Source: Acytostelium subglobosum LB1 (lineage: Eukaryota > Evosea > Eumycetozoa > Acytosteliales > Acytosteliaceae). From it: 64,000 nucleotides of DNA. Made by a program: the position numbers and the translations under genes. The notes beneath the pieces were generated by a model that saw only the letters and a program-made list of their open reading frames with translations, was not told where the DNA came from and ran no database searches. Shown here piece by piece: positions 7,521-43,600 of the stretch (position 1 is the first letter of the stretch; every line of letters begins with the position of its first letter). Location of the stretch: NCBI RefSeq assembly GCF_000787575.1, contig NW_012236531.1, positions 1,697,396 through 1,761,395 of the forward strand, given 5' to 3'.

Positions 7521-9153
7521 TTACATAACAAGACAATTTATTGATTTCTTCTTCTTTAGAGGATCTAATTGTGTCTTTGATGGGATGATATCTTCGTTGT
7601 TGTAGCTGGAGATCCCCCATTTAGACATGTCCTCATCCAACTTGAGGTACAAAGTGTCTGTGAGTCTATAATATTGTAAACATACAACTCCATAAATATT
7701 GTAACTTAGTCGTACAATATTCAATGGTAGATTGGTTCTTGAAGGTAGTACCAATATATATCTAGTGCTTGAAATTGTCAATGATCTGATTGAACTTGGC
7801 AGCACTTTGATTACATCAATGTCATGATTGTAGCTTGCCAATGACAAATCTGTAACTGACGATGGTATGTCGCCTGGTTTGAAGAATCCTTGATACCCAT
7901 AAATATACAACTTGTTAACAGAGTGAGGTATCCAATTGCCAAGACTCTTTCGCTGCGGGAACATTGGTGACATATTGATTTGTAGGTGCTCGATATTCTG
8001 TGGCAGCTCGTATGGTCGAGCAAGTTCCAACAGAACATCTCGCAAAGTTGATGGAAGATGTTTGAATACAAGTGATTTTGGTTGATCTTGGAATGAGAAT
8101 ACAGATAGTTTGGTGAGCGAGGGGAATGATTGGGCTGTGATCCTGGCAATAACTTCGCTCCTCACATGAGGTAACAGCATGGTGGTCATGTTGATGAATG
8201 GTTGTGTTGTACAGAATCGTGGATTGATAGAGTTGATTATAATGGTGCGCAGAGATGTGCATGATATGAGTGAGTCATACTCGACACCAATGGATAGATG
8301 GGTGACTTGAGGCGGGAGGTCATATGGCAGTAGGTAATAATCTAGCATTATACTCTCTAGTCTAGGTGGTAGGGCACTAGGTGTGATAGGTTTGTTCCAG
8401 AAATTTGAATTGTTCTTGGACAGACATCTTAGTGTGTCGGGTAAGACATGATCCAGTGTACCATCAAAGTCACCAGTGATAATGAGTGATTCCAATCTCT
8501 CTGGAAGTGAGTTTGGTACGATTGTACTATGTGTCTCGTCAAATCCGACTGTTAGCTCATTAATTGGAGTGTCTGGCGGTGGTAGTCTACAAGCTGGTGC
8601 ATTATAAACGAACTTTAAATGACTTGCTCTTTCTGCCACCTCTTTCAAATCACTCCAGAACTTTGCTGTGAACTGATGTTCATCATCATCACTAAGCCAC
8701 ACTCTCTGAACCTGGCCTGCCCTGGTCATAAAGTCCTCCTTCCAACTATCGATCATACTTCCTTCTCCATCTCCTAATCAAGTATGTATTGTGTCAGTCA
8801 CGATCAACCAATCAACCAATCAATCAAAGGATGTACATACCAACAATGAAGTGCTTTTTGGGATCATAGATATCATCAATGGGCATTGCACTATATATTG
8901 TAGCAGTGTAGAGGATTGATTTGTTTATGACATCATCAAGTATTATCTGTTTATATGATTGTAGATGTAGTCTTGATGATCCATTTACAAGTCCATAATT
9001 TATATAATGCAACCATTGTTTATGATCAAAGCAAAGATACTTTAGTCTTTCACTAAACAATCGTTTACAAACCAATGTAAACCTTATTCTATCAAAATTA
9101 TCATCTATTAATGTAACTATATATTGTATTATCCTCAAAGGTAATGTATCCAT
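7521..9153 (-). CDS. F-box-like FNIP protein with CaaX box CLVM (FNIP gene 3)
   Basis: Exons 9153-8841 and 8773-7521 give 521 residues. The N-terminus is MDTLPLRIIQYIVTLIDDNF, then DRIRFTLVCKRLFSERLKYL, the DRI variant. FNIP repeats are recognisable but looser than in genes 1 and 2 (for example WNKPITPSALPPRLESIMLD). The tail is YRLTDTLYLKLDEDMSKWGI, then a lysine run and the terminus KKKKSINCLVM. C-L-V-M is a canonical CaaX box; a terminal Met favours farnesylation, and the preceding KKKK resembles the polybasic membrane signal of K-Ras. Membrane anchoring of an F-box-like protein is inference. Confidence 0.9.
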
Positions 9154-9250
9154 TATCTTTACAACTTGGAAAAGATTGGAAATGGTCCAATTTTTAAGTT
9201 TTGGACACTTCTGACACTTTCTTCGACTTCACTCATTCACTCCATCAATT

Positions 9251-10502
9251 ATGTCAACAACAGATAACAAGTATCTTTATAATCTTGTCAATCATAAGCT
9301 AACTAGTAACTTACTTGATTGTAAATGGATACCTAATAGTTGTAGAGTGATCACTGTTGGATACAGTGGAGCAAAGTCCAATCTAAAAGGTGACATTAGG
9401 ATATTCCATCTTGATGATGTTGATCCTACGACTCCATCCGCTGCACGTCTTACCCTGTCCAATCAAGTATGTGTATACATACTCAAAGATTGATCAATCA
9501 TATGTACATTATACATGACACTAACTCCTACACTCAAGGGTGAATCATCGTCCAAACTCAGGTGTTGCTCATTCATAAAGGATGAGCAGTTGGCACCATC
9601 AAGACATATGGCTGTTGGTGACTTTGCTGGCAACCTTTCAATTTGGGACATTGACAGATTGGATGTACCAATTAGATCGACAACAATGTCGACGACAGCG
9701 ACGACAACGACAACGACATCAGGTGGAAACATACAATCTCACAATAGTACTGTAAATGCAATTGATTGCTATCAATCATTGATAGCAACAGGTGGACGTG
9801 ATGGATATATTGCGATATGGGATTCAAGAGGACCTCTAAAGACTAGCACACATTCATTCTCACATCAAGTCGATGAGAAGAAGGACTGTTGGTCACTTCT
9901 AATACATGGAACAAACGTACTTGGTGGCTACGAGAATGGTGACCTAGACATCTTTGATCTGCGGACGAATAAGCGACTATCATCAATCAATATGAAATCA
10001 TCAGTATGATCAATCAATCAATCTCACCATTGGGTCATCCACTCACTCATTCACTCATTCATTCATCTACGACTAGGTCACGAGCATATCTTTGAACAAT
10101 CGGTTTGATTATGGAAGTATCATTGTTGGAGGAAATGAATCAACAATGACAACAATGTCATGGTCCAATCAATTATTCACTCAAGTCCATGAACAAAAGG
10201 TAATCCATCCCATCCATCAATGTTTGTACCTAACTAACATCCACTTTACCTACCCTTAGGGATTGAGCAAGTTCATTTGGTCAGCGAGATACTCACCGTT
10301 CAAGTCCAATGTATATTGTACATCAGATAGTGATGGCAATGTATCATTGTATGATGACAAAGTGCTGGTCGATAGGATCAAGATATGTGACTTCCCAGTT
10401 CTACACCTCGATTACAATCAACACAAAGAAGGACTAATGGCTGCCATCTCTCTAAACAGGAAGTTGTCAATAATAATATCACCATACGGTCAATCACTGT
10501 GA
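9251..10502 (+). CDS. wdr92: WDR92/Monad-like WD40 protein
   Basis: Four exons (9251-9466, 9539-10003, 10077-10199, 10260-10502) join in frame to 348 residues, close to the usual ~357 of WDR92. Family landmarks are LLDCKWIPNSCRVITVGYSG, MAVGDFAGNLSIWDIDRLDV, NAIDCYQSLIATGGRDGYIA, KKDCWSLLIHG, LGGYENGDLDIFDLR and the C-terminal PVLHLDYNQHKEGLMAAISL. In other eukaryotes WDR92 (DNAAF10) works with the R2TP/prefoldin-like HSP90 co-chaperone and is needed to assemble axonemal dynein arms. Dictyostelids have no cilia, so here a cytosolic chaperone role is more likely. Repeat 3 contains a low-complexity Thr insert. It ends 28 bases from the stop of the convergent FNIP gene 4. Confidence 0.85.
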
Positions 10503-10530
10503 TTGATTGATCAACCAACCCTTGGGTTTA

Positions 10531-12178
10531 TTAGGAAACACTGCACTTTGAAGGCTCTGTGGAAGTGGGGTCTGCTGGACCCTTGGTATGATTGATGATA
10601 CTGTCATAGATGGTGAAGCCACAATGTGATAGGTCATCATTGAGAAGGAGGAACAGTGTGTCTGTTAATCTATGTAGTCTGGCCAACATTCGTCCATTGA
10701 TGTCCAGAATGTTCAACTCTGTGATTGAGTTGGATGGTGGACGATGAAGTCGTAGTAATTCGCCAGAGATAGTCAACGATCTCAAGGAAGTTGGTAGATG
10801 TTTAAAGTTGATTGGCGCACCGCTATGATATGTCAATGATGTGACCGATGATGGTATATCACCAATCTGTTGAATCTCATCACATTGATTGATTGTCAAT
10901 GATGTGATTGAATCGGAAAGCCAATGTTTGTTCTTCTTCGAACCGAATCCAGGTAATGTACAAAGACTCAACTCCCTCAGTCCGGTGGGGAGTGTGAATG
11001 GTCTGGAGAACTGAAGACTCAGACTTTGGATCGACAATGGTAATGACATCAGATGGATCTTGTCCGCCTTGTCTGTGAATGATCGCACTTGTAGACATGT
11101 GAGCGATGGGAATGACGACCCTGTGATAGTCGCGATCACATTGCTCTGTACTCGTTTGAGGATCAACGTTTTGAGTGATTCATTGATTTGGCTAAAGACA
11201 GGGTTTGGAGACCGAATGATCAGTTTCTTGAGTGATGGAGGACTTGTGATCACGTGGTTGTACTCTGCGCCCAGTGATAGATGTGTGAGATTGTGAATAC
11301 ACTCGAGATCAAGATGATGGTTGTATTGCCTGCCAAGACTAAGTGATTCAAGACCTGAAGGGATGATTCCAGGGGTGATTGGTTGGTTCCATACGTCATC
11401 CATCGTCAACACTTTGAGCCCATCTGGCAACACTCCATCCAAAGTGCCCACAAAGTTGCCTTTGATGTTGAGCACCGTCAATGATATAGGTAGGTCCATT
11501 ATAGTTTGATTGAATGCGGTATGATCGGTTGACGCAACATCTCCATCAAACACTATTGTCAACTCTGTGAATGGTAGACGTGGAAGTGGTGCCATGTTAC
11601 GTCTATTCCATGACCTCTCATTATATGCCAACTGTACATTTGAACCTGATCGCGACAACTTCTCCATTAGAACACTCAGCTCTATCCAGAAGTATGAGCT
11701 GAATGGATAGTCTGACGGTGACATTATCTCAATGCGGCCAATCCTATCATGCATGGATAATATCTCATCTTGCCATATATCCTGCACTGATGTCATTGCT
11801 ACAACAGTCACACAATGTCAGGTCAGTCAGTCTATCAATCAAACGATCATTCAATCAATTATATTACATACACAGGAAGAAGCAATGATCGAATGAGTCG
11901 AGTGGTACAATGTGCATGGGAATAGTGATGAGTGCTGATTGATTCTTCTTGAGTGCGACATCATTGAATATAATCTGTTTGTAAGAGTTGAGATGTGATG
12001 CGATTGAAGTGCTGTTGTACTTTGTTCGTTGTAGAATGAACTGTTGAGTGTTGAAGCTTAAGTACTTCTCTCGCACTTCAAACAATCTCTTACATAACAA
12101 TGTTATCTTGATACGATCTGCATTGTTTGGTATCAATGATACAACCTGTCTAAGTAGAGAGTATGGCCAAATGTCCAT
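10531..12178 (-). CDS. F-box-like FNIP protein with CaaX box CSVS (FNIP gene 4)
   Basis: Exons 12178-11872 and 11798-10531 give 524 residues. The N-terminus is MDIWPYSLLRQVVSLIPNNA, then DRIKITLLCKRLFEVREKYL. Repeat examples are LPDGLKVLTMDDVWNQPITP and PSSVTSLTYHS. The tail reads LHRLTDTLFLLLNDDLSHCG and the protein ends EPSKCSVS. C-S-V-S fits a farnesylation-type CaaX box, though without the lysine run of gene 3. A C-rich element (caccccaccc, about 12300-12309) lies upstream and resembles a dictyostelid G-box. It is convergent with the WDR92-like gene. Confidence 0.9.
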
Positions 12179-12449
12179 CTTTCTCCTTTATCTATATCTG
12201 TTCTTTTTTTTGTCCAATGATTGGATTGAAAGATTCAAAGTGGACCAATCTGACTTGGAATGATTGATCAACATCCCTGGAATCTTTCCTTTGATCAGAC
12301 ACCCCACCCGATCCACACTTCCAATAGGCAACACGTTGCTCCTCGGTCCACTCACTTGTGATCATCAGTTATTCTCTTTTAGAACTTCAAATGATTATAT
12401 AATAATAACATTTTTATTCCTAATTTGGCGATGATTGATTATCGCCTTA

Positions 12450-14141
12450 TTAGGAAATGATACATTTCTTCCTTGATGATGATCGTGGTGGATTTTCTTC
12501 TATTGGATCGTTTTGTTGAATACGATTGCCTAGGTATCTATCGATCCGTGAGAGGATCGAATTGTAGGTCGTGAATCCACATTGTTTAAGATCACCAGTT
12601 ATACGAACAATGAATTGATCAAACGTCAATCGGTACATCTTGTAACTCTTGTTTGGTATTACTATCTCCAAGTACACGATTGACATTGGTGGTGGCATTG
12701 GGTTCAGTGCCTGTCCTCTAATTGTCAGGGATCTGATTGTAGGTGGCAATATCATGTAGTCTATAACAACAGACTCGAGATATGACAGATGAGTCAATGA
12801 TGCTGGGAGTGGTACTACACTGCGTAGGAAGTTCATGGCGAATGACCCTTCGATCGACAGTGATGTGATGGAGTTTGGAAGTCTTAGGCATCCATTATTA
12901 TGCATATCTGGCCTGAGTGTTAGATGCAACTTCTTCAGACCAATGGGCAAGACGAATGGTCTGTTGATCACTATCATTAGATCTTCGAGCGAGATGGGCA
13001 ATGTTCCTTGTGGTAGGTGGTCAATCCTATAGTCGTCCAAGAATGAGTGTACATGAAGTTGCGTGAGTGATGGGAATGTCTTGGATTTGATCCGACAAAG
13101 CACTTTGGTATAGACGGCAGTGAGTATCAAAGACTTTAACATAGAGTATGGCTGGTCAATGTTAAAGAGTGGGCTAGGTGCATCTAAAGACAGGTATTCA
13201 AGTGATGATTCAAATGGAATGATCTTGTTGAATGATTCTCCAAGTGATACACGTGTGACACTGTTACTGCACTCTAGATCATTGAGTGGATGATCGTAGC
13301 TACGACCTAGTTGTAGTGTCTCCAGTTTGGATGGTAGTATCCCATGTGTGATTGGATTGTTCCAATCAGATGTTTTGATTGATAGGTGTCTTAGACCATC
13401 GGGCAGTGTACCCTCCTCCAATGTACCATCGAAATAACCTTCAATTGTTAATGACGTTAACGTTTCAGGCAAACTATGTCTATTGATGTTTGAACGACGA
13501 TCATAACTGAATGTTATGGTCAAATCTGTAAAAGGTAGTGAAGAGGGCATTGGAAACATGTTCATCCAAACATTATATGACAATCCTATTGTTGTCATTT
13601 GTTGTTGCTCTTGTTGTTGTTGTTGTAACTTTATCAACAAGACCTCTCTCAAATCATTCCAGAACATTGGAGGCAGCATCTTTGCAACAGGTTGTATAGC
13701 AATATGACCAACATTAGGTATGGCCAATAAATAATCCTTCCAATCTCTCTCCATCTTTAATGACCACCAATCAGATATACCTAAATGTTATTGTTAATAA
13801 TCAATAACAATCAAACATTAGACATACTTACCTAGTGTAATACTATGATCGTATTGATCTGAAGCCAAACATGATGGTATCATTAGGGAGACTGATCGTT
13901 GTTTCCAAATGTTGATGTTGTTGGCATCATTGTTGATGATCTTCTCGTATGACTTTAAAGGAGTTGTGATATAAAGTTGATCACCAAATAGGTTTAGATT
14001 ATAAGGTGTTGAATCAAAGTGTAGATACCTATCACGTTGTTCAAACAATCTTTTACATAACAATGTAAACTTTATCTTATCCTCATTATCCACTATATAA
14101 TAAACTATTTCTTGTAATACTACATGTGGTAAATTATCCAT
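12450..14141 (-). CDS. F-box-like FNIP protein with CaaX box CIIS (FNIP gene 5)
   Basis: Exons 14141-13832 and 13780-12450 give 546 residues. I chose the ATG at 14141 (MDNLPHVVLQEIVYYIVDNE) because it aligns with the first residue of the sister genes; the open frame continues upstream without an ATG. The signature is DKIKFTLLCKRLFEQRDRYL. Repeats include LPDGLRHLSIKTSDWNNPIT and LPSKLETLQLG. A Gln run sits near the start of exon 2. The C-terminus SSSRKKCIIS joins a short basic patch to a CaaX box of the type found on farnesylated Ras proteins. Confidence 0.9.
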
Positions 14142-14386
14142 TGATTTTATAATTATCTCTTTGTTTGTGTATGTGTCGACATCACTTTGGGGGTTCACGC
14201 GACTGTTTGTGATTCGTTGTGCCCCTTCACAAAGGTCATGTACCACACTTGACCAATTCTTGTTTTGTTCTATCTCAGAGATATGTTTGATCTCGATCTA
14301 GGTCTGAAATTCATTCCCATTCTTTCAAGTAATACATCATAGTTATAAATATATATATATATGTGTTAGTTATATATTTATATAAT

Positions 14387-15720
14387 ATGTTACAAACGAA
14401 AAGACGATGGTTGTTATTATTAGTTGTAATTCTATGTTTTACTACAACTGCTATATATATAATTGTACAAAGAGAGTTATTAAGTAATAATATAAGTAGT
14501 AGTCATAGTAGTAATAGTAATACAAAGACAGAACATATACATAATCATCATCAACAACAACAATTACAACAACAAACTACATTCAATGTAGATAATGATT
14601 TACTAAATATTAACGTTAGCCAACATAAAGTATTAAGAAAGAAATCATTACAATGTAAACACTTCGATGTATTATATACATGGGTCAATGGAAGTGATCC
14701 ACAATGGATTAAAGAAAGGATGGCTACAGAAATGAGGTAGGTCACATTGCAAGCTATTCCCTCACTCAATCGCTAACATAATTAATCACCTAAGGCTTGG
14801 AATACCATATCAAGGTATATGGCGATATAGAGACGTGATGGGTTTAAAGTATTCATTGAGGAGTATTAAGAAACATTTGCCATGGGCCAGACGTATATTT
14901 GTAGTGACGGCACAACAGTATCCGACATGGTTCAATCAGACAATGGATGACTTTGATACTGGTGTCAAGTTCATCTTCCACGATCAATTATTCCACAACA
15001 AGAGTCATTTACCAACATACAGTTCATCCTCAATCGAAGCAAACTTTTGGAACTTACCAGATACCGTCTCTGATTGCTTCATATATCTAAACGATGATAT
15101 ATTCTTTTCATCAGACAGTATGTACATTATCGAGTTGGGTGAGCATGAGCATTCGTACTGATTGATTAATCAAATATGTAGTCAGACAGGATGACCTTTA
15201 TCGAATCGACACTGGACAAGCACTTCATTTCACAGGATGGAAGGCACCTGTTCGTTTGGAACTTCAACAGACAAATCCATATCATGCATCACATGCTTAC
15301 ACGAATGGATTGTTGGACAAGATGTGGGGAATAGAGACAAGAAACTACTTTGCTCATGGTGCATTATTGTTGAACAAACGTATCCTATCACTGATAAGGG
15401 ATACATTCAGCAAAGAGTTGGACAATGACAGTGCCTCACCATTCAGATCGAAATCAATGTTTGTTCTACAGTTTGTTTATGTTCACTTCGTATCGAGGTT
15501 CATCGAGTCGTACACTGGCCGTCAAGATTTCAACTATTATGGCGAGATTAGAGATTGGCCCAATCACATGGAACGACTGACCAAGGACATCATCCAGAAG
15601 CGACCAAAATGTGTCTGTCTCAATGATGGCCTACAAGAGAACTTCAATCAAACTGTGCTCACAACTCTCGAACACATGTTCGAGACACTATTTCCAGATA
15701 AACAAAGTTGGGAGATTTGA
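14387..15720 (+). CDS. Stealth-family (GNPTAB-like) sugar-phosphate transferase
   Basis: Exons 14387-14736, 14795-15117 and 15182-15720 give 403 residues. The start is the ATG at 14387. Residues 8-27 (WLLLLVVILCFTTTAIYIIV) form a signal anchor, followed by a Ser/Asn/Gln-rich stem, so this should be a type II Golgi or ER membrane protein. Conserved region 1 is at 93-107 (FDVLYTWVNGSDPQW). Conserved region 2 includes YSLRSIKKHLPWARRIFVVT, LPTYSSSSIEANFWNLPD and FIYLNDDIFF. Stealth proteins transfer hexose-1-phosphate (GlcNAc-1-phosphotransferase in animals, capsule enzymes in bacteria). Dictyostelid lysosomal enzymes carry phosphorylated glycans, so a role there is plausible but inferred. It ends 43 bases from the convergent FNIP gene 6. 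Confidence 0.85.
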
Positions 15721-15763
15721 TTGATCGATTGATTGATTGATCGATCGATTCTCTCTTATTTGA

Positions 15764-17533
15764 TTACAACAAATTATTTAATAATTTGTTTCCAGCCAAT
15801 GACTCGTGGACACGATCGATATTGATAAAGCCTGTACTCTGTAGATTTTGTTGGTAGTTGAAGAATAGAGTGTCTGATAGGCGTAGTAGATGTTGCATCT
15901 GATCCAAATAGTCGTTGATACCGACACTGAGTCGGCTCACTGTCTCAGGAAGTTGTCGAAGGAATTCAGAGTTGATCTCATGGCGATATCCTCGTAATAA
16001 TAATTTCCGCACAGACTTTGGAATGACCTCTGCTACATTGAGTCGATGTTCATATCCTTCCAATTGAAGCCTGGTCACCGACGACGGAATATCACCAACA
16101 TTAATTGGATTGTTGAGTGTGAGATAGAGACTGGTAACAGAGTCTGGTACCAAATTATTGGACAACTCATCGTAAACAATGTGATCATTTCTTGGCACAA
16201 AGCATATGAATAGCATTTCGATACCATGTGGAATGCCTGTGAGTGGTCGCTCAGTTTGAAGGTAAAGACGTCGGAGTGATGTGGGCAGTGCTGAGAGGTC
16301 AAGAGGTCCATCGCCAATGAATTGATCAATGTTGAGCTCGACCAAGTTGGGAAAGGCTGACGATGTGATGGCTGGCAGTGATGGAAGATCGGCAACAATC
16401 TCAATCTCTTGGAGATTGGTAAAGATATCCACATTGGAGCGGAACAATGGATAGCATTCGATATTGAGAAGTAATAATGATTGATGAGCAATGATTGGTT
16501 GAGTGTATGTTTGACTAAGTGTGAGCTCTGTGACTGTTGGAGGTAGACCAACAAGAGGAAGGTTGAAGGCTGATTCCCTCAAACCCAAACAAGTTAGAGT
16601 GGCCGGCAGTATGTCCTGATGAGTGTCCAAAGGTTGATCAAATGCGGATCCAAACACAAGTGTCATCAATGTCGCAGGGAGGACTCTTGGATTGATTGGT
16701 AGATTGAATGATGGACCAAACACCAATTGCTCCAGTTGTGATGGCAGTGTGTCGGGTCCTATCGGTTGATTCCATTGCTCGCACTGTCCAAGGTTCAAGC
16801 TCTTTAGTCCACTCGGGAGAACGCCGCCATCAAATGATCGGTCGTACACTCCTTGGATCTCCAGTGTGATCAATGATCGTGGAAGATAGCCTGGTGTGAT
16901 ATGGTCTGTGATCTTAAGATGCAGTTGTACCTCTGTCAATGGCAGATCAAACATTGGCAACGTTACTGTGAATGAACCAGAGTACAACAGTTTGGAGATT
17001 GATCTTGAGTTGGCCAACTCATTCAATAACTCTGGCATGTTCAATCGATTCCAAACATTGTGCACTGACATAATGCTACCATAGTCTCTGAACTTGACCT
17101 GATCAATGCTTGGTATCATCTCCACCTCTTGGCAAATCATTTCATAGCTCATCTTTGTCGCGCCTATCATATGAAGTCAGTACGAATGAATGAAGTATGA
17201 ATGAGCTAGCTAGACTAGACTAGAATACTTACTGAATGTGTAGTCATTGACCAAGTTGATTAGAGTATTGAATGAATGTATCAATACTGATTGCGACTTG
17301 TTGTTTAGATCGTCAATGATCATCTGTTTGTATGAGTTTAGACATATGTTATCATTGATATTGAGTAAACATCTATGTCTTAATGGTAGTTGCTTTGTAT
17401 TGAATCGTAGATAACTATGTCTCTTTTCAAACATCCATCTACATGTCATTGATAACAACAATCTATCAACATTATTATGTATACATTCTACTACTATATG
17501 TCTAAGTACTATTAATGGAAGTGTATCCAACAT
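15764..17533 (-). CDS. F-box-like FNIP-repeat protein (FNIP gene 6)
   Basis: Exons 17533-17233 and 17163-15764 give 566 residues. The N-terminus is MLDTLPLIVLRHIVVECIHN, then DRLLLSMTCRWMFEKRHSYL. The repeats are regular, for example LPSGLKSLNLGQCEQWNQPI, LPSQLEQLVFGPSFNLPINP and LPATLMTLVFGSAFDQPLDT. The C-terminal module is LLRLSDTLFFNYQQNLQSTG, ending NKLLNNLL, with no CaaX box. About 500 bases of non-coding DNA separate its start from the 3' end of the first Ras gene. Confidence 0.9.
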
Positions 17534-18020
17534 GTTGATTATTAATGTTATCTCTATCCTCTATCTCTAACTCTTTGTCATGACGACAGACACATTTGTG
17601 GCGAACCTGTCGTCGACGGAAACACATGAAAAGAGTGCCGCCAGTCATTGGCGAATGGGTGTGGTTGTGTCGCGCGAGGTCTACACTACTTTGAGTGAGA
17701 CTAATTGTTTATTGTTGTTGTTGTTGTTGTTGTTGAGGTTGTTGTTCTGTTGTACATAAGTCTAATAATAACACATGACTCCTTAAAGATACTAGGAGTT
17801 GAGGGTCGGATTGCAATGGAAGTTTGAATGATGGTGGAATGAAGGAAGGAAGGTGTGTCGTTTATACAATGTCTTGTAATCTCCTGTAAGGGCTGCGTGC
17901 ACACGCACTTCCAACACATTCGATCAATCATACATCAATCATTCATTCAATCATTCGCTCGCTCGCTCACTCACTGCACTACAGTGAAGGCTGGCTCCGT
18001 CTTGAGAATCGCGACTGTCT
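17534..18020. other. Gap between FNIP gene 6 and the first Ras gene
   Basis: This 487-base gap holds the upstream region of FNIP gene 6, with G/T-rich patches at 17630-17700 (gggtgtggttgtg) that in G-box terms are candidate promoter elements, and the 3' flank of the Ras gene with a gtt run at about 17710-17735. I see no gene; an open frame at 17701-17931 on the minus strand is low-complexity and unsupported. Confidence 0.4.
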
Positions 18021-18670
18021 TTAGAGAAGAGCACACTTGTTCATAAGGTTACCCTTCTTCTTCTTCTTGTCTGGCTTGGTGTCACCCTTGGTGTCCCTTC
18101 TAATCTCACGAACCAGCGAGTAGAATGACTCCTCAACATTGACACGAATCTTGGCTGATGTCTATGTTTGATTGATTGATTGATTGAATGTTAGTCGCTA
18201 CTTCATGTTTGATTGATTGATTGAATGAATAAACATACCTCGAGGAATGGACAACCGAATGACTTGGCAAGGTCTTGACCCTCGCCGGTGGTGACTTGAC
18301 GCTCACCCTCCAAGTCGCACTTGTTACCGACGACGATCATTGGCACCTTGTCCTTGTCCTTGACTCTGAGAATCTGCTCACGGAATGCAGCAATCTCATC
18401 GAATGATGATCGTGAGGTGATCGAGTAGACACAAAGGAATCCACCACCAGTTCTCATGTATTGATCACGCATGGCTGAGTACTCTTCTTGACCAGCAGTG
18501 TCGAGGATGTCCAACAAGCATGTCTCGTCATCGATGGTGACCTGCTTTCTGTACGAGTCCTCAATAGTGGGATCGTACTCATCAATGAAGTGATTCTGGA
18601 TCAACTGAATAGTCAACGCTGACTTGCCGACACCACCACCTCCAACAATTACCAACTTGTACTCTGTCAT
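18021..18670 (-). CDS. Ras GTPase, RasD/RasG type (copy 1)
   Basis: Exons 18670-18239 and 18161-18021 give 190 residues, the usual Ras length. The P-loop GGGGVGKS keeps the residues equivalent to Gly12 and Gly13. Switch I (YDPTIEDSY), DTAGQEEY with Gln61, NKCD and ETSAK are all intact. A lysine run (KKKKK) precedes the C-terminal CALL, a CaaX box whose final Leu favours geranylgeranylation. The only intron is after ..CPFLE, the same place as in copy 2. MRTGGGFLC has Gly where I recall Gln in RasD/RasG and Glu in human Ras. Two 17-bp direct repeats and a G/T-rich tract lie upstream. Confidence 0.95.
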
Positions 18671-22203: not shown

Positions 22204-22868
22204 TTAGAGAAGGGTACACTTGGCCAAGTTCTTCTTCTTCTTCTTGTCTGGCTTGACGGTTCCCTTTGTTTCCTTTCTGATCTCACGGACCAACGAGTAG
22301 AATGACTCCTCAATGTTCACACGAATCCTGGCTGAGGTCTAAAAGATTGATTGGGAATGTGGTGGAATAGTTCCATAAGTGTGTGTTAGTTGGGGTGATC
22401 AGTCAATAATGAAGAGTGAGTCTCAAACAAACATACCTCGAGGAATGGACAACCGAATGACTTGGCAAGGTCTTGACCCTCGCCGGTGGTGACTTGACGC
22501 TCGCTCTCCAAATCACACTTGTTACCAATGATGATCATTGGCACCTTGTCCTTGTCCTTGACTCTGAGGATTTGCTCGCGGAAGGATGCAATCTCATCGA
22601 ATGATGATCGTGAGGTGATCGAGTAGACACAGAGGAATCCACCACCAGTTCTCATGTATTGATCACGCATGGCTGAGTACTCCTCTTGACCAGCAGTGTC
22701 GAGGATGTCCAACAAGCATGTCTCGTCATCGATAGTGGCTTGCTTCCTGTACGAGTCCTCAATAGTTGGATCGTACTCATCCATGAACAGATTCTGGATC
22801 AACTGAATAGTCAATGCTGACTTGCCGACACCACCACCTCCAACAATTACCAACTTGTACTCTGTCAT
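22204..22868 (-). CDS. Ras GTPase, RasD/RasG type (copy 2)
   Basis: Exons 22868-22437 and 22338-22204 give 188 residues, almost identical to copy 1. All G motifs are intact ([34 protein letters not shown]). Differences cluster beside switch [10 protein letters not shown] in place of NHFIDEYDP, and KQATIDD in place of KQVTIDD. These are residues 27, 29 and 45, which influence nucleotide and effector contacts in Ras. The tail is [13 protein letters not shown], again ending in Leu (geranylgeranyl type). The MRTGGGF change is shared with copy 1, which supports recent duplication. Confidence 0.95.
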
Positions 22869-31844: not shown

Positions 31845-33253
31845 AACTCAAGCATCAGCTCCAGCTCCAACTCAAGGCTTGGCACATGTACCAGCTAGTA
31901 CACCACATGCACCTAAAGCAGCAGCAGAGGAATCAGTGGCTATCCCACCACCAACATCATCAACAACTCAAAGCTCAACTGCCACTACCGCACCTACAAC
32001 TACATCCACATCCAGTACTAGTTCAACAAGCACAACAACTACCAACTCAAGTCCACCAAAGTTCTCTACCGAGAAGAAATCAACAAAGCCAACAAAGCCA
32101 GCAAAGGAAGGTGAGTATCACATCCATATGGATGTTGGAGATTGAAAGTCACCAAGTGAGCTGGCGCTAATACAAAACGAATTACCAATCAAGCAGCTGA
32201 AGAGTCCACTAAGAAGGGAGCCAAGAAGCAAGCAAAGGAATGCGAGTTCTACAAGAAAGGAAAGTGCGCCTATGGTAGTAAGTGCATCTTTGTACACAGT
32301 AAGTTATCAATGGATCAATGAATGTATGAATGAGCACTCTATTAACAACGACAACAACAACAACTATAGCAAATACTACTACTTCTACAACTACAACTAC
32401 AGGTACAAACGCAGCTGATGAGACGAGTGCACAACCTATTGCAACACCAACAAGAAGGGGTAGGGCTCAAGAATCAACAAAGACAGCTGTTTCGGCATCA
32501 AAGACCAAGGTCAACAAGAACGCGGATGTCGATTCAACACCAAAAAGTAACACTGCCGCCAAGCCTCTGGTGAATCAAGCAGTAGAGGAACCAAATCCCA
32601 CTCCTTACAAACCACCAATGAAGGTGGAGGCAGCACCACCTGTTGCCAAGGCACCAACCCCAGCAGCAGTCCCAGCACCAGCCCCTGCTCAAGCACCAGC
32701 ACCAGCAGCAGTACCAGCGCCAGCACCTGCTCAAGTACCAGCACCTGCTCAAGTACCAACGCTAGTTCAAGTACAAGCACCAGCTCGAGTACCAGCACCA
32801 GCAACTCAAGCACCAGCACCAGCTCAATCACCAGCACCAGTTCTTGCTGCTCCAGCACAAACACACGCTCCGGCGCCATCGCCAGCACCAGCACCAATTC
32901 ATGCACCAGCACCTTCAACAGCCGCATCAACACCAGCATCAACACCTAATCAAACACATCCATCACCACCACAGCTTGTACTCTCATCGTCGACATCGTA
33001 CTTGTCCACACCTCCATTTGAGTGGACGATTAGAATGGTTGCCGACTGGCTCGAATCAATTGACATGCCACTAGAGGTCAGACAGGCATTCATGGACAAT
33101 GAGATCAGTGGCAAGACTCTATTCCACATCGATCAGGTCGACTACAAAGATCTTCTATTGCTAACAGTTGGCAGAAGGAAGACCTTTGAAAGTGGACGAA
33201 CACATCTAGTCATGCTATCACAGATGGCCGCCTCCACCTCGTCACCATCATGA
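30085..33253 (+). CDS. CCCH zinc-finger and SAM-domain protein (gene C), six fingers
   Basis: Seven exons (30085-30457, 30534-30917, 30999-31145, 31213-31641, 31697-32110, 32194-32298, 32370-33253) join in frame to 911 residues. The six CCCH fingers are CHFFKKGSCANGDACLFKH, CEYWLNNKFCLKGDTCSFLH, CEFFKKGNCSRGYNCTFVH, CDFWLRGDCFHGAACIFKH, CNFWRTNTCSQGKDCPFIH and CEFYKKGKCAYGSKCIFVH. Linkers are poly-Gln, a poly-Ala run of about 20 and Pro/Ala repeats. The SAM domain is C-terminal (MVADWLESIDMPLEVRQAFM .. LFHIDQVDYKDLLLLT). Every intron that follows a finger is phase 1, just after its last His. The acceptor of exon 5 could also be 31717, in the same frame. Confidence 0.87.
30549..30612 (+). repeat. 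Coding AGC/GCA trinucleotide repeat (poly-Ala) in gene C
   Basis: About 21 uninterrupted GCA codons produce an alanine run between fingers 1 and 2. The same triplet read in another frame would give glutamine, the more usual dictyostelid homopolymer. Confidence 0.85.
31755..31880 (+). repeat. Coding Pro-Ala minisatellite in gene C (first of two)
   Basis: Repeated ccagctccagca units code PAPAPAPA. A second, more degenerate block of the same kind lies at about 32650-32910 before the SAM domain. Both are likely extended, disordered spacers. Confidence 0.8.
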
Positions 33254-33374
33254 TCAGGGATCACTCCAGCCAACCAGCATTTGTGACGAATAAACCTCCA
33301 TAAAGACAGACTCCTTTTGTCAAAGCATTCATTATTAGTTCTTGTACTTGTACAAATAACTACCATCAATAATA

Positions 33375-34999
33375 ATGGAGTCACTTCAACATACATTACT
33401 TAGATATATTCTATCATACTTGCCATCAAACACTGATCGATTGATGTTGACATTGGTCTCCAAACGAATGTATGAACAACGTCATAAATACCTTCACTTT
33501 GCTTTGGAACACATAACAAGAGACATAAGAACACATACATCATTGAAGTCCTACAAAGAAATACTCCTTAACAATCAACAACATGGACACAAAGGTATCA
33601 AAGTAGCAGTATACACTAATAGTCTATTAAACAGATCTGATTATGATCGTACATTCCTCATCGGTATGTTCATTCATTCATTTATTCAACAGTAATGCTT
33701 GTCTAACAACATACTAAATAGAGACTGGAGCGGAAGCAAATAGATCATGGATAGATGATATATTGAAGATGAAATTTGGAGACGTTGTTGTTGATTGATA
33801 ACTCTGCGAGGAGTTTTGATATATTGTTCTGGTCAATGATCAATGAGTCATTGATTGATAGACTGCAAGACAACGTTATTGTGTCATTCACAGTCAATTT
33901 TCCAGGTTATTGGTCACCATTACAACATGTCAACATTACAAAGTTGAACCTTACGTCAGTGTTTGCTATTGACATCCCTTTGAATGCCATTCCATTGACA
34001 CTTACAGACTTGAGTGTTACTGGTCCAGATTTTATATTTGATGGACGACTGCCTCATGGCCTGCGAATACTTAACCTCAGAAACTGTGATTATAACAACC
34101 GGGAGTTCTTTCCAGGTACCTTGCCCTCCACACTCTGTGAACTATACCTTGGTTCAGGCTACTATGAACTGCTGGATAACAAAGTGTTGCCACATTCACT
34201 CACATTGTTAAGCATACCTAGTCCTCATTATGGTCACAACTTGGATACCCTCCCGACTAGTCTCACAGACTTGCATATTCACTCGTACCATGGCCAGGCG
34301 ATACAACTCAGATCATTGACGCGATTATCCATCTCTGTTGTAGTTTGTCCACTCAACACCTCCGTACCATTCACGAATCTAAAGAGTCTGGTCATTGGTC
34401 GATGTGACGTACCGATAATCCCTTCAATCACACAGACATCCTTTCCAGCACTGGTCCAACTGAGCATCCAGAACTTCCCGGATGTCATTTCGAAACATGA
34501 CTTCTTGGGATTCACACCAACAGTGACCGATCTCAACCTTGACCTCTGCCATCCAACAATGATACCAGAGGGAGTGGAACTGTTGCGTATAAGATGTAGA
34601 CGTAACTTTAACCTGTTGATTGGATCACTTCCCTCGACTTTGCATACAGTCCACCTAATCGGATACAAATATCCTTTGACTCAACAAGATATACCATCAT
34701 CTGTTACAGAGTTGAACCTTGTTGACTCGAAGCATTGGCCATCACCATCTATATTGCCAGTGACATTGCATTCATTGCATCTGGCATCTGGTCATCCACA
34801 AAACTATCATCTTGGAGCATTGCCTTTATCAATATGGATGATAAGCATATTGATACATGCACAATACTACTTCACTAGACATGGACGACTTCAACTCCGT
34901 CGTATATCCTCAACAATATTCTTTATGCAATCTGAAGATATGTTACGTTGTGGATTCGTCACTGCTGATAAGTTTCAATCAGTCATCAACAAGTATTAG
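33375..34999 (+). pseudogene. F-box-like FNIP gene with one frame break (FNIP gene 8)
   Basis: Exon 1 (33375-33663) is normal: MESLQHTLLRYILSYLPSNT, then DRLMLTLVSKRMYEQRHKYL. After a standard phase-1 intron, exon 2 starts at 33722 (ETGAEANRSWIDDILKMKFG) but hits TGA near 33795. The FNIP part continues in the +1 frame (NSARSFDILFWSMINESLID onward) to 34999 with good repeats and the usual tail (LRRISSTIFFMQSEDMLRCG). No alternative acceptor I tried restores the frame. One extra base (or two missing) in the gttgttgttgattgat stretch explains it. The locus is either a very young pseudogene or carries a sequence error. Confidence 0.75.
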
Positions 35000-36538
<1,539 letters not shown>

Positions 36539-36676
36539 ACACCCCCAATAAATCAATTACAGAGTCTATCTCTTTATCACCCTTATCAAACATCAATCAG
36601 ATTGATAATATTTCTCTCGTCGACTTCAACAACTTTATTTCTTTTTTCTTTACCTGACTCAGTTGTATACATACAA

Positions 36677-38335
36677 ATGGAATCATTACCAATAACAATA
36701 TTACAACGTATAATATCATATGTAGAGGATAACTTTGATAGACTGGTACTGTCTTTGGTCTGCAAGCGATGGTTTGAACACAGAGACAAGTATCTATACT
36801 TTGACACTACTCACTTGCCAACATACGATGCATTCAACAAGTACATGGACAAACAATGTTATCTCAGATCATACCTGGACATCATTCGCAATGACATCAA
36901 CAACAAAGGACAGACAATACTTGTACACAAACAAGTACCTGACAACACTGAGATGTACATCTATGATCGAAGTATCTTCATTGGTAAGCATATACATTTA
37001 CATTGTCTGTCATGAACATGTTACTGACACCAGCTTACCTAAACAGAGCCATCGAGGAGTTGGAGACAAGATATACTACAACTACAATGCATTGTCAAGA
37101 GCATAACATTTGAAGAAACTCGAGACTCGCTGTTTGATGGAGTATTCTGGTCTGAGCTTGACTCATTCGTCAAGGAGCTTCATCATGTTCATCCAAACTG
37201 TTTGATCAATCTACACTTGGAATCAGTGCCCGAGATCAATATACATCAACTTCCATTGAGCAATCTAAAGGTCAAAGCAAGTACCAATTGGCAGATCAAC
37301 AAGGACATGCTCCCAGCATCACTCACCAGCTTAACAATCATGGGTGAGAGGTTCCAAAGTAATCTCAATCATGTACTACCGGAAAGTCTAAAGATGCTAC
37401 GTATAAACGATGCATTCAATTGGAATCTACCGATAGAGTCTGGTGGTCTGCCATCGCAACTAGAGCGCATTAACTTTGGTGGCACGTTCAACCATCCTCT
37501 GGCAGGCGTACTTCCACAATCAATCAACAGACTGAAACTCGAGTATTCCAGGTTTGATCATGACTTGGTAAACATGCCATCAAACCTCACAAGACTATCG
37601 TTGCACTGTGTGCAACCCTTTGCCAGGAGGATTGACTTGCCCAACTTGCAACGCCTCAAAATCTCTCAAGTCTCTCAACCATTCACCAACGTATTCCCGC
37701 AACTTAAGATATTGTCCATAGGCAAGATTCAAACAACATTGTTGACATCGCACATCACAGATCAAAACTTCCCTCGTCTATACAGGCTCCACGTCAACAA
37801 TATACTTGACCAGGCTGGACAGCCCAAGACGGATCTCAATCTCTCAAGGCTTCCAACTACCTTGAGAAAGTTGAGAATAATATTCGCACAACCAATCTCA
37901 GCATTTCCAATTGGTCTGGAGAGTTTGAAGATGGAGTACTCTGGTCTATTCAGGTTGCATCCAGGGCTGTTACCAACCACGATCCGGACATTGGACATTA
38001 GGTCATACCAAACACAATTGGAGGAGGGTTGCATCCCTCAATCAATCAGGTCGATAAGCATCGATGGCAGACATCTTGGACAGTTGGTTGGTGATCATGT
38101 TGCTCCACTTCCATCACTACGTAAACTCACATTGAAAATAATCTATCGCAAGAGCATTATCAAACAGTTAGCAACACCATTGATACGCATTGTTGACTCT
38201 GAATATATAGAGTATACACTTCGACGTATCTCTCCGGACATATTCATCTATGTCTCGTTCAACATGACAAGATGTGGCTTCATCAATATCAATAACCTGT
38301 CCACTGTGATTGGAGCTATGGACGATGATAGTTAA
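36677..38335 (+). CDS. F-box-like FNIP-repeat protein (FNIP gene 9)
   Basis: Exons 36677-36983 and 37047-38335 give 531 residues. I chose the ATG at 36677 (MESLPITILQRIISYVEDNF, then DRLVLSLVCKRWFEHRDKYL); an upstream in-frame ATG at 36602 would add a hydrophobic 25-residue leader not seen in sister genes. Repeats include LPESLKMLRINDAFNWNLPI and LPSQLERINFGGTFNHPLAG. The tail is LRRISPDIFIYVSFNMTRCG, ending GAMDDDS. The stop lies 6 bases from that of the convergent FNIP gene 10. Confidence 0.9.
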
Positions 38336-38341
38336 CTAGTT

Positions 38342-40108
38342 TTATTCGTTGACATTAAAGCCAAAGAGTTGGCCAAGCTGATCGTCTCGGAGGAATCCAC
38401 ATTGAACAAGTTCATCGGTCCACTTGAAGTGGAGTGTAGGGGACAGTCGACGGAGATTACACTTGGAGTTAAGGATTGTTATGCTCAAATCCACGATGGA
38501 CTTTGGCAGAGCTTGTATTTGCTGGAGACCGACAGTGCTACGATGTTGGAACCGTTCCAATAACTCTAGTGAACGAAGTGATGTTGGTAATACGGTGGTA
38601 TCCATATTATACCGATCGATTTTCAATGATGTCACTGATTGAGGTAGGATACCTTGTTCAAATGGACTTTCGTAGCCTTTTAAAACAAGTGTGTCTATCG
38701 ATGATGGAAGTTGACCCATCTTGAATCTGATTGATGGATTGTTAATCCTTATGGTCAAATGTTTGATACCATGTCTAATTGATTTGAGTGGCCTGGTGAG
38801 TGGTATAGCAAGGAAGCAGAGTGACGATGGCAGTGTGGACAGGTCATGTTGATAAGTGACCAATTTGTTTAGCAAGTGTAATCTCCCGATTTCCAAATGT
38901 AAAAGGTTTGGAAAGTTGACTGAGTTGATGATCGATAGTGTACTGGACAAGATATTATGAATGTTGAGTCGTTGTAAATGATCAAATATGATCTTGTTAC
39001 TAAACTGCATGCGTTCAGACCACGTCTCCAATATTTGTAACGGTTGATGTTCGATTATATGAGTGTATGACTTGCCGATGACCATTTTGACCAATGAGGA
39101 TGGAAGTGTCGGTAGCGGTTGGTCGTATGGAATGTCAAATATCAACTCAGTTAGAGATTCTGGAAGTTGATGGCTCTCTATCTTTTGATTAAAGTCACTG
39201 CCAAGAGTGATATGGCGTAGACTCTTTGGCAGATTGTCCAATGGTTGATTAAAGTTTCGACCAAGCTCTATAGAGAGCAGTGACAATGGCAATGAGCCTG
39301 GAAGGAAGGGTTTGTTGTAAGACATTCCAAACCGGATACTTTCCAACTTGGGAGGCAGTGACCCGGGTGTGATGGAATGATCCCATAGGCTAGCCGATGA
39401 AAGGTTGAGGTATAGTAGACTGGTAGGCAGTACATCATTGGCTATTGGACAGTCGAAAAAATGACCATCAATCGATAGTTTGGTCAATGTGATGGGGAAG
39501 AATGATGAGTGGAGTTGAGAACCAGCAATTTGTTCCTGGAAGCAGATAGCCGTGACTGATTCAAGTGGGCGACAACACTCAGATATTGGTATTGGCTTAT
39601 TTGTTCTGATTGCTGTTTTGGTTCTTCTTGATGATAAATGTACAACAATCTTGTTGATAATAGACCAGTGTGATTCAACAAATGGATGCTTAGCAGAGTC
39701 CTGGAACTCTAAAAATGATATAGTCGGTATCCCATCTAGACATTGTATCAATGTATCCAAGTTATCTTCTATATTGTTTGTTAGTTTGTGCATTCTGGTC
39801 ATTCATTCATTCCATTTCATACCAATGTAATATGTATGATCCCAATATGAAGATTGAGAGGTGATTGTATTATTTGTACTAATTAATACAGACTGATGGA
39901 CATCTCTTTGTATTAGATGTATGTATGATGGTAGTTGTCTACCATCTGTATATCGATTGCTGTGCAACACTGACAAGTTATTGAAATGTAACCAACTCGA
40001 TCGTTGATTATACAAACGATTACATGTCAATGATAACATCAGTCGATCAACATTGTCCAAGTTGGTTACAATTAGTTTGAGTAAAGTGTATTGTAATGAC
40101 TCCAACAT
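38342..40108 (-). CDS. F-box-like FNIP-repeat protein (FNIP gene 10)
   Basis: Exons 40108-39823 and 39768-38342 give 570 residues, the longest FNIP protein here. The N-terminus is MLESLQYTLLKLIVTNLDNV, then DRLMLSLTCNRLYNQRSSWL; the usual CKR is CNR. Repeats are very regular (LPPKLESIRFGMSYNKPFLP, LPLSLLSIELGRNFNQPLDN, LPKSLRHITLGSDFNQKIES). The tail LRRLSPTLHFKWTDELVQCG leads to LFGFNVNE. No CaaX box. The intron is only 54 nt. Confidence 0.9.
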
Positions 40109-40240
40109 CCTTTACTTCTTCGCCTTATGTATTTGTGTGTATGGTAGTTTGGTTGATCATGTGATCAAAACTGGACACTGAAATGATCAGATCAATCAGA
40201 GATCGACGAAACCAGAACAAGATAAATAATAATAATTATA

Positions 40241-41903
40241 ATGTTAGATACAATACAACTTACAATACTTCAACATATTATATCATTCTTGGTTGATAAT
40301 GCTGATCGAGTGATGGTAACATTAGTGTGTAAACGAATGTTTGATCAGAGACATAGATACCTACACTTCAACACCAATACAATGTTATATAATCAATTGA
40401 TAGAGTCAATTCGAGATGGTAACATCAACTTAAACTCATACAAGGATATAATACATAGAGATATACTCTACAAATCAATACAAGTTGTACTCACTGCTCA
40501 ATATGATGAAAAGCAAGCGGAAGGCTCGGACCTGAGAATAGACATTGGAAGTATGATCATACTTCAAACATGTTGCCTACGGTACTTACTAACCTCTTAC
40601 TTGCTTTATTACTACTCTAGATAACAAATGTTGGAATGGTTGGAAGCATAGACTACCAACTCCCACAAACATTAATGAGGTCAGGATTGAGTATTTCAAC
40701 GGGTCATCGTTAGAGACACTTTGGGAACAATCTTTGAAGCCATTCATGGATGAGTTGTCTGCCAATGGATCATCACCAAAGATATCAGTCGTCAATGATA
40801 TAACCCCAATGGGATTTGTACCAGAGCCTTATGTTTACTTCACAACAGACTACTACTGGCCATCATTTCAAGCATTCACTCCATCCACTTTTGCAACAAG
40901 CTCAATGGTCGAGTTAGAGATTGATGGTTCAACCTGCCCATTGAAGGGCAGACAGCCTCTGTTCAATTCACTTCCAAACACGCTTCAAAATCTTTCAATA
41001 CAAGGAAGATGGAGGAATCAACCTCAAACGGTCAATCTCCCCGACGGTCTCACAGACCTGTCGTTGGGAAGGTTTGACCCTCCGTTGCAATTGAACAAAC
41101 TACCATCATCACTCACATACCTCGATCTATCAAGACCTTTGGGCCATCCTCTTCCCAAACTACCTGATAGCCTTACCCACTTAATATCTTGTGGAAATAC
41201 GTGGATCACAGAGGCACCCGCATTGAAGATGTTGGATTTAATGGAATCACCAACTCCATTCATACCAAACTCCCACTTTAAATGTCTGGACTCACTCGAA
41301 CTCGATAAAGTGAATCACATTGGTATGATATTAAGCATTACTCCCAACTCTTTTCCAATGTTGCGTAAACTTAATTACGTGGAGACAATTACCAAAGGTG
41401 TACTCGATCTCACTGGACTACCTCCAACAATCAAGACACTCAGGCTGGGAATTTGTCGAGCATTTGGAACCATTCCCAATGGTATCGTTAAACTGTTCAT
41501 CAACAACAATTTTGAAATACCTGATCGATTCAGACTGCTACCAGGACAGCTACCAGGTACATTACAAACACTTGGACTTGTAAAATACCAACAACAATTT
41601 GAGTCTGGTATATTTCCAGACTCTCTCACTTCACTAGTTTTGGATGATTATGATTTCAAGTTGAATGACAAACTGTTGCCATCATCATTGCGAGCACTCG
41701 AATGGAATGGTGGAGGCATTAGGAGCAAAAGAAGATTCCTCCAGCGTCTACCAAAATCAATAGTTGACCTATCCATCAATCACTTATATCTTATCTGTCT
41801 CCCAAACTCAATCTTCTTTCGAAAGGATTACAATCTTTCCAAGTGTGGATTCTTCAATGTTGACCAATATTTCGAAAACATAATAATAAGAGATAAATCA
41901 TAG
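40241..41903 (+). CDS. F-box-like FNIP-repeat protein (FNIP gene 11)
   Basis: Exons 40241-40550 and 40621-41903 give 530 residues. The N-terminus is MLDTIQLTILQHIISFLVDN, then DRVMVTLVCKRMFDQRHRYL. The FNIP repeats are less regular, mostly LPxxLxxLxL units (LPNTLQNLSIQGRWRNQPQT; LPSSLTYLDLSRPLGHPLPK). The end CLPNSIFFRKDYNLSKCGFF corresponds to the common tail. One base separates its stop codon from the stop of FNIP gene 12 on the other strand, so the two transcripts must overlap at their 3' ends. Confidence 0.9.
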
Positions 41904-41904
41904 G

Positions 41905-43600
41905 TTACATTGTGATACATTTTGAAGTCTTTGTTCGGTGCTTCTTGACTAAGTCCCCATTGATGGTATTGCTAAAGGAACTGTGACCACTGGTTGCACG
42001 ATCAATGAACTCTTCGAGATCTGGACGGGAAATGTCCAGAATACCACTCTTCTCAAGAGTATTTGTGAGTCGCAGGAACACCGTGTCTGAGAGTCTGTAC
42101 AACTTGAATGTCACTGCGATACTAGGCATGGTGATGGACACCTCGGTGATTGTTATAGGTAGTTTTCTGAGCTCTCTTGCAATGAATGGACAATGTTGGT
42201 CGGCCTTTTGGAATCTTCGAACGGTAAACCATAATGTTCGAAGTGATGATGGTAGCATATTGTGGTCAAGCTCCAGGGTATGCTTACGAAGGTACAGTGA
42301 GGTGACAGATTGTGGTATGTCGCCCAATTGGAATGGTATGGCATAGCCCTCCAATGTGAGATTGGTTATCGAGTCTGGAAGTAGTCCACTTCTAAGTGGT
42401 TGACAGTTGGTGGCCGCTTCAAGATTGACACGTAGTGTGTCCAAACCCACGGGCAAGGCAGATGGCATATTGTTCAGTCCAACATCCAAATGTCTCAAAG
42501 AAGGTGGTAGGGTTGATAGGTCCATTGGGGCTGGCGGCTGATCAACCAATTGATTGATTGTGAGCCTATTCAGTACTGGGAAGACTGTACCATTGATCTT
42601 TGATAACACCTGGCTTGTAACACCCTCGAACAGAAGTGTTGTGAGTAGAGGGTAAGGTGAGGTTGAGAATCTTGGCTTGACTGACTCGATCGATAGTGAA
42701 TGAAGTGATGGACATTCGATCACCTTTTCATATGAGCCTCCAAGTGCGAGATTGGTGACACTGCTGGGCAGACCATCCAGAGATTGATTGAATGAATATC
42801 CAAACTGGATTGATTCGATGCCAGGTGGCAATGTGTCTGGTGGTATCTCTCGGTTCCAGGAGGCGGCAGATCGCAAGTTCAACTTCTTGAGACCAGCGGG
42901 AAGGATGTCGAGTGTTCCATCAAAGGGACCGGACAGAGTGAGATTGGTCAGTGAGTCGGGCAGGCTGGATTGACCAATCGTATTGATATCTGAATGGTAG
43001 AATACGATGCTAAGAGTTTTGAATGGACAGTCTGACAATGGTAGTCTTATTGGGGGTATATTCAAGTATGTCATATTCACTGATCTACTGGCCAGATGTG
43101 CCATCAACTCCTTCAAATCAGACCAAAACAACGGATTGTTTGATCGTTGTGCAGTATCAAACATTGACAATGACTCCAAGTTTTGTATCCTCATCACTTC
43201 TTGTTTCCATTCCCTTCCAGCCTCCTCACCTATTCAAACATGTATAATGTTGGGTTAGTGATTGATTGAGTTTGAGATGAAGGAATATGCATGCATGCGT
43301 ACCAACATAGAATGAATGATCGAAACGATTTGATGCATCGAATCCAGGTGATTCAAAGTGTAGTAGGACAGTGTGTTTCTTTATGTTGAACAGGTCATTG
43401 TGGATGACACTTCGATATGACTTTAGATTGAGATTGTCAAAGTTGTAATTTAGTTCAGGCAAGCATGCCTCATCAAAGTTACAATACTTTTCACGTTGAT
43501 CATACAATCTTTTACATAACAATGTCAACCTTATCCTATCCTCATTGCCAGGTAACAATGATACAATCTCTTTAAGTATTACATGTGGTAGTGTGTCCAT
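41905..43600 (-). CDS. F-box-like FNIP protein with CaaX box CITM (FNIP gene 12)
   Basis: Exons 43600-43303 and 43229-41905 give 540 residues. The N-terminus is MDTLPHVILKEIVSLLPGNE, then DRIRLTLLCKRLYDQREKYC, again the DRI variant. Repeats include LPDSLTNLTLSGPFDGTLDI and LPPGIESIQFGYSFNQSLDG. The tail is LYRLSDTVFLRLTNTLEKSG and the protein ends KKHRTKTSKCITM: basic residues, then C-I-T-M, a CaaX box with Met last (farnesyl type). It is the fourth CaaX member and lies about 28 kb from the other three. Confidence 0.9.

Follow-up and report, generated by a model that had tools for sequence, protein, structure and literature searches.

The stretch of DNA analyzed here (the window) comprises 64,000 nucleotides of the Acytostelium subglobosum LB1 genome (contig NW_012236531.1, positions 1,697,396 to 1,761,395; 41.8% G+C) and carries a cluster of 13 genes for FNIP-repeat proteins, four of which (genes 3, 4, 5 and 12, denoted W3, W4, W5 and W12) end in a CaaX-type prenylation box. 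Rereading of the open reading frames (ORFs) reproduced what had been noticed from the sequence alone, namely the ends CLVM, CSVS, CIIS and CITM, all encoded on the minus strand, the absence of Cys at position -4 from the remaining nine of the 13 FNIP ORFs, and the basic residues (KKKK, RKK and KKHR) that precede three of the four boxes. The genes and boxes, in window coordinates, are as follows.

7521..9153, minus strand: FNIP gene 3 (W3); F-box-like exon 1 at 8839-9153, FNIP exon 2 ORF at 7521-8756
7524..7535, minus strand: CaaX box CLVM of W3; stop codon TAA at 7521-7523
10531..12178, minus strand: FNIP gene 4 (W4); F-box-like exon 1 at 11873-12178, exon 2 ORF at 10531-11796
10534..10545, minus strand: CaaX box CSVS of W4; stop codon TAA
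12450..14141, minus strand: FNIP gene 5 (W5); F-box-like exon 1 at 13830-14141, exon 2 ORF at 12450-13754
12453..12464, minus strand: CaaX box CIIS of W5; stop codon TAA
41905..43600, minus strand: FNIP gene 12 (W12); F-box-like exon 1 at 43301-43600, exon 2 ORF at 41905-43194
41908..41919, minus strand: CaaX box CITM of W12; stop codon TAA

The W3 ORF terminates with ...LKKKKSINCLVM (last residues KKKKSINCLVM), the W4 ORF with ...EPSKCSVS, where a single K immediately precedes the box, the W5 ORF with ...SSSRKKCIIS, and the W12 ORF with ...KKHRTKTSKCITM (last residues KTSKCITM). Gene models consisting of a single ORF were rejected because an F-box-like exon was found upstream: in all 13 window genes, a first exon of approximately 280 to 320 nt precedes the FNIP ORF, which is the second exon (the intron in the W3 model is about 67 nt). 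These first exons are alignable across all 13 genes and have an F-box-like appearance. The coordinate 43600, where the sequence-only reading had ended the region, is the start of the W12 F-box-like exon.

Cysteine at position -4 and the history of the CaaX box

Enrichment of CaaX ends among FNIP proteins genome-wide had been posed in advance as a check on the sequence-only reading, and such enrichment was found. The genome searched is that of a single species (30.7 Mb in 56 contigs); among the loci matching gene 12, eight further FNIP genes with Cys at position -4 were identified outside the window (L numbers denote loci and C numbers contigs).

L011: end CNIM
L012 and its neighbor: ends CTIL and CTTM
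L013: end CIIA
L014 (C47:938k): end CLLM
L017 (C43:423.7k): end CSIM
L020 (C43:426.3k): end CNTM
L037 (C19:175.4k): end CVLM

Cys occupies position -4 in 12 of the 108 distinct C-termini of FNIP type in our sample, which is non-random, leaning towards relatives of the CaaX genes, and consists of related rows; at the 14 other positions between -1 and -15, by contrast, the mean count of Cys is 1.9 (range 0 to 4). Removal, by judgement, of seven doubtful rows (L001, L015, L023, L024 twice and L028 twice; ORFs resembling F-box exons and short or edge fragments, none with Cys at -4) leaves 12 of 101, with some short rows or possible pseudogenes retained. Tail composition alone predicts 0.26 to 0.29 CaaX ends. 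All 12 ends with Cys at -4 are orthodox CaaX boxes, with V, I, L or T at the a2 position and M (8 ends), S (2), A (1) or L (1) as the X residue. Thus, Cys at position -4 is confirmed to be more common than expected by chance.

The sampled C-termini came from 60 loci found in searches with CaaX FNIPs, eight loci from a Pfam search of the genome in which 150 of 3777 candidates were scored, the 13 window genes, and 43 ends fetched by place (two of them duplicates); ORFs shorter than 150 aa, matches with E above 1e-5 or below 60 bits, frames open at the locus edge and those with N near the end were excluded before counting. Searches with gene 4 and three of the new genes yielded no further intact CaaX FNIP among the places followed, and Cys at -4 was present in none of 40 additional ends from the gene 12 and gene 4 places and none of three from later searches. 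The 12 CaaX FNIPs are a lower bound, and further ones, or CaaX-less members of their clade, may exist beyond the candidates scored and the places followed.

Whether the annotated stops mark the true C-termini had been posed as a second check on the sequence-only reading; in the 12 CaaX genes they probably do. The stop codon directly follows the X residue in all 12 genes and is TAA in seven, TAG in four and TGA in one, and the Cys codon is TGT or TGC; this adjacency, maintained despite the differing stop codons, is hard to reconcile with a real end located in another exon.

In the tree of the window FNIP proteins, W3, W4, W5 and W12 form a single clade (support 97/93), with pairwise identities of 32-38% (BLAST). 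The original argument, that a chance Cys at the same position four times is improbable, was therefore wrong in form: a single clade implies one ancestral event rather than four, and four independent chance events were rejected on this ground. The stronger argument against chance is that the box has been kept while the proteins diverged deeply. A larger tree included 52 FNIP rows (12 with and 40 without CaaX), namely the models of the window genes and those closed ORFs that reached both 235 aa and 140 bits, with CaaX rows admitted at any score. Here, a single clade gathers 11 of the 12 CaaX rows and none of the 40 CaaX-less ones (98/97 with tails included). The clade persists when the tails are removed before alignment (99/99, with bootstrap values not fully settled), so that the box itself could not have pulled these rows together. 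In the search with the L012 gene, the other clade members were listed ahead of every CaaX-less gene; in the searches with gene 12 and with two of the new genes, some CaaX-less genes ranked above some clade members, and those high-ranking genes that were put in the tree (e.g. L016, L054 and gene 10) fell outside the CaaX clade. The remaining CaaX row, L037 (CVLM), groups with a CaaX-less gene (99/77 with tails and 100/92 without), which indicates a second gain; a single clade of all 12 CaaX rows is not rejected by the approximately unbiased test (p 0.18). Judging from these topologies, the box of L037 is likely to have been gained separately, so the box probably originated once and then once more.

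The placement of 11 of the 12 CaaX genes in one clade, together with the proximity on one strand of three of the four window genes, all four of which belong to this clade, is also what would be expected if the CaaX-like ends were functionless chance letters spread by gene duplication. The pattern of conservation makes this explanation quite improbable. The median pairwise identity among the 12 CaaX rows is 31% (range 24-39%, except for L012, L017 and L020 at 51-56%), and the summed branch lengths of the clade in the tree without tails correspond to about ten substitutions per average column; nevertheless, when the scrambled tails of the 11 clade members are aligned from the right, Cys at -4, V, I, L or T at -2 and M, S, A or L at -1 are each found in all 11, whereas at the other positions within the last 20 the most common residue appears in at most six. 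Likewise, when the four window CaaX proteins are aligned, no column beyond Gly384 is invariant except Cys426. In L017, a long Thr/Ala-rich insertion in the tail (an open frame of 554 aa compared with 464 in two relatives at 51-56% identity) left the frame and the CSIM box intact; L012 and L020 have short tails, and each of the three retains its box. The apparently separate gain of CVLM elsewhere in the family also speaks against chance letters.

FNIP repeats, tails and neighboring genes

Of the 13 window exon 2 proteins, eight were scanned against Pfam, in a scan confined to window genes; all eight contain FNIP (PF05725) above the curated score (65-99 bits in W3, W4, W5 and W12, compared with the curated 21), and no other Pfam family was detected at E up to 1. 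The structural model of W12 exon 2, built from an alignment of four sequences, is a predicted repeat solenoid with a mean predicted local distance difference test score (pLDDT) of 75. In this protein, the only CaaX member modeled for its tail, the segment from residue 399 to residue 429, at whose end the CaaX box lies, has pLDDT under 50 and is predicted to be disordered, suggesting that the tail is exposed and flexible, as substrates of CaaX processing need to be. A Foldseek search with the W12 exon 2 model retrieved CroV588 as the top match (E 4e-10, TM-score 0.34-0.43 of the query), followed by another CroV FNIP structure; over both, the TM-scores are modest at 0.30-0.43 of the query.

A second Cys is found beside the box in L017 (KCCSIM) and L020 (RCVCNTM), as in palmitoylated Ras proteins. 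Ykt6, with the end CCAIM, is doubly prenylated (PMC9141697).

Two Ras genes are located within the FNIP cluster.

18021..18670, minus strand: Ras gene; CaaX end with polybasic tail
22204..22868, minus strand: second Ras gene; CaaX end with polybasic tail

The two genes are very similar to each other, and each contains an apparent intron; their products end in CALL and CTLL, preceded by KKKKK. Such neighbors could, in principle, have donated CaaX tails to FNIP genes by recombination within the cluster. However, the Ras boxes end in Leu, whereas 11 of the 12 FNIP boxes end in Met, Ser or Ala; by eye, the tails share nothing but basic residues; and members of the CaaX clade are found also on other contigs (C38, C43 and C47). 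We therefore consider this route of acquisition highly improbable.

The cluster includes several further features.

~6719..7081, minus strand: decayed FNIP gene of the CaaX type, C-terminal remnant; one internal TGA, end GKSLCTIS
33375-34999, plus strand: FNIP gene 8; F-box-like exon and FNIP frame separated by stop codons
35393-36538, plus strand: polyubiquitin gene; five units and a final Gln

The remnant is 54% identical to the C-terminal region of the paralogue ending in CTIL, which lies on the same contig. Gene 8 may be broken or may contain a further intron. The antisense strand of the polyubiquitin gene is open for 297 codons.

A search of the genome for prenyltransferases identified three beta-type and three alpha-type loci. 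Closest relatives were sought for two of the three beta loci and one of the three alpha loci: one beta locus is nearest to the farnesyltransferase beta subunit (E 9e-81), another is nearest to the beta subunit of geranylgeranyltransferase type I (E 2.5e-66), and the alpha locus (L116, C47:178.1k), represented by a query protein joined from two open frames, is nearest to PTAR1 (E 3e-27), with Rab geranylgeranyltransferase alpha at E 2e-13. According to PMC9141697, conservation of PTAR1, the alpha subunit of geranylgeranyltransferase type III (GGTase-III), extends from the fruit fly to mammals; the PTAR1-like gene L116 is found here in an amoeba.

Putative ligase receptors and the F-box-like exon

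We estimate the probability at roughly 75% that the CaaX FNIPs are a subfamily of F-box/FNIP proteins with a working CaaX box, i.e. putative membrane-tethered, mostly farnesylated substrate receptors of SCF (Skp1-Cul1-F-box) ubiquitin ligases. As read from the sequence, such a protein consists of an F-box-like N-terminus followed by a leucine-rich-repeat (LRR) solenoid of the FNIP type, a lengthened tail and the C-a-a-X-stop end. We infer from the ends and tails that the CaaX Cys would be prenylated, then trimmed and methylated, and that the proteins would reside on membranes. Under the letter rule for CaaX boxes, which defines the accepted letters and according to which the X residue sets the lipid, the ends in M, S and A would receive farnesyl and CTIL would receive geranylgeranyl; the lipid, together with basic or extra Cys residues, would provide for anchoring on a cytosol-facing membrane. 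The F-box would then engage Skp1/Cul1, with the solenoid presenting membrane-associated substrates to the ligase. In favor of this interpretation, the F-box-like part, the FNIP region and the CaaX box share one open frame in L014, in the gene at C55:1586k and in L037. The enrichment of Cys at -4, the clade of 11, the prenyltransferase genes and the two Ras genes with CaaX ends, all described above, also speak for it.

Several observations weigh against this interpretation. None of the 12 CaaX members reaches the curated F-box cut-offs of Pfam; 11 have a sub-threshold match to an F-box model, and L011 has no F-box match at all in the Pfam scan, in which each of the seven other CaaX members from elsewhere in the genome had a sub-threshold one. 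A profile of the 13 first exons gave weak matches in PDB (TIR1, E 0.086; COI1, E 0.98), and a Foldseek search with a low-confidence model of exon 1 (mean pLDDT 62) found nothing. The tree has only 52 rows, and isolated C-terminal ends could not be positioned in it. The tails themselves speak for the interpretation: those of the CaaX members are longer than those of CaaX-less FNIPs (26-90 residues versus a median of 17; p 5e-6, for the rows with a locatable module, 10 of 12 CaaX and 39 of 96 CaaX-less), and they are also more basic, with a net charge that averages about +2 versus -0.2 (p 0.0015, 12 versus 79 rows). However, these p values count related rows as independent, and the tail lengths of the two groups overlap. 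The long basic tails are comparable to the hypervariable tail of Ras, and the net charge is positive in nine of the 12 members; it is -1 in W4 and L037 and 0 in L011, so the basic second signal is not universal.

The sub-threshold F-box scores of the CaaX members, one of which has no match, would also be compatible with prenylated, membrane-bound repeat adaptors whose N-terminal domain lost the ability to bind Skp1 and which are not ligase receptors. We consider this alternative rather unlikely in view of the similarity of the first exons. Among the eight window first exons scanned with Pfam (genes 1, 3, 4, 5, 7, 9, 12 and 13), those of genes 9 and 1, both CaaX-less, exceed the curated F-box cut-off, that of W12 scores 20.4 bits against a cut-off of 20.5, and those of W3, W4 and W5 show weaker matches (E 0.055-0.088); gene 7 has a match below the cut-off and gene 13 has none, so that, of the four CaaX-less siblings scanned, two pass and one lacks a match. 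The first exons of W3, W4, W5 and W12 align over their full length with those of W9 and W1. TIR1 and COI1, albeit weak, were the sole PDB matches of the 13-exon profile at E up to 1, and the TIR1 alignment falls at its N-terminal F-box. Furthermore, the FNIP subclass is among the receptor domains predicted for proteins that interact with Skp1 in Dictyostelium (PMC9485057). With no passing score among the CaaX members, their assignment as F-box proteins rests on family resemblance, by which we infer that they belong to this class. The original designation of an F-box set holds insofar as an F-box-like exon 1 is present in all 13 window genes, and falls short insofar as none of the 12 CaaX members clears a curated Pfam cut-off.

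Relation to known systems

The closest functional precedent for putative SCF receptors with a CaaX box is vertebrate FBXL2 (CVIL), in which, likewise, an F-box and an LRR-type solenoid precede the box. The sequence-only reading had cited FBXL2 in this role, which is borne out by PMC5627969: FBXL2 depends on its CaaX Cys to fractionate with membranes, to bind substrates and to engage neddylated CUL1. Geranylgeranylation of FBXL2 likewise requires the box (PMC5627969, PMC9141697), and the enzyme responsible is GGTase-III (PMC9141697). The CaaX FNIPs differ from FBXL2 in that the X residue, which is Leu in FBXL2, is Met, Ser or Ala in all but one of the 12, and in that they are a multi-gene family in one genome; furthermore, the repeats are of the FNIP type, whereas those of FBXL2 are ordinary LRRs (PMC9141697). 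The CaaX FNIPs may work like FBXL2 but, not sharing its LRR class, would not be its orthologues.

Within the dictyostelids, the CaaX-less F-box/FNIP proteins, including nine in the window, share the two-exon architecture and the family with the CaaX FNIPs, and differ in the absence of the box and in a tail that is, on average, shorter and less basic. To our knowledge, roles have been established for few FNIP proteins. One example is chtB, a gene affecting social behavior in D. discoideum, which encodes an FNIP-repeat protein (PMC3559258). The family is large and expanded in social amoebae: for an orthologue group described as B-box zinc finger and FNIP proteins, 381 members are listed from Acytostelium subglobosum and 241 from D. 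discoideum; of the four species tabulated, three have 206-381 members and the fourth has 55 (PMC4334915).

In relatives of Mimivirus, F-box and FNIP are combined in one viral protein, and FNIP, F-box and Mimivirus are named together in the literature; one viral scan, with window FNIP gene 10 as the query, found no relative. AnkB of Legionella is an injected bacterial protein with ankyrin repeats, unlike the FNIP proteins. The resemblance lies in the membrane anchor: AnkB is an F-box protein that is anchored to the vacuole membrane through farnesylation of its CaaX box by the host (PMC5506055). No report of the CaaX-FNIP combination was found in searches of open-licence PMC papers, which brought up an mTOR review and papers on Legionella effectors and on ARF GTPases. 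F-box/FNIP proteins are known, as are CaaX F-box proteins, and their combination is new as far as these papers go.

If the CaaX FNIPs are indeed membrane-tethered SCF receptors, they would represent convergence on the FBXL2 design, with a different LRR scaffold and probably a different lipid. More speculatively, and in our view unlikely as things stand, they could be diversified lipid-anchored SCF receptors that arose in social amoebae independently of animals. Their FNIP solenoids, which change fast, would scan a membrane, e.g. that of the cell surface (plasma membrane) or of phagosomes on the cytosolic side, and bound targets would be marked with ubiquitin; such a membrane-based recognition or surveillance system would mirror, on the side of the host, what Legionella does with its farnesylated F-box effector. 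Since the C-terminal signal sets one clade apart and carries predictions of lipid and location alike, this part of the FNIP family lends itself to direct testing.

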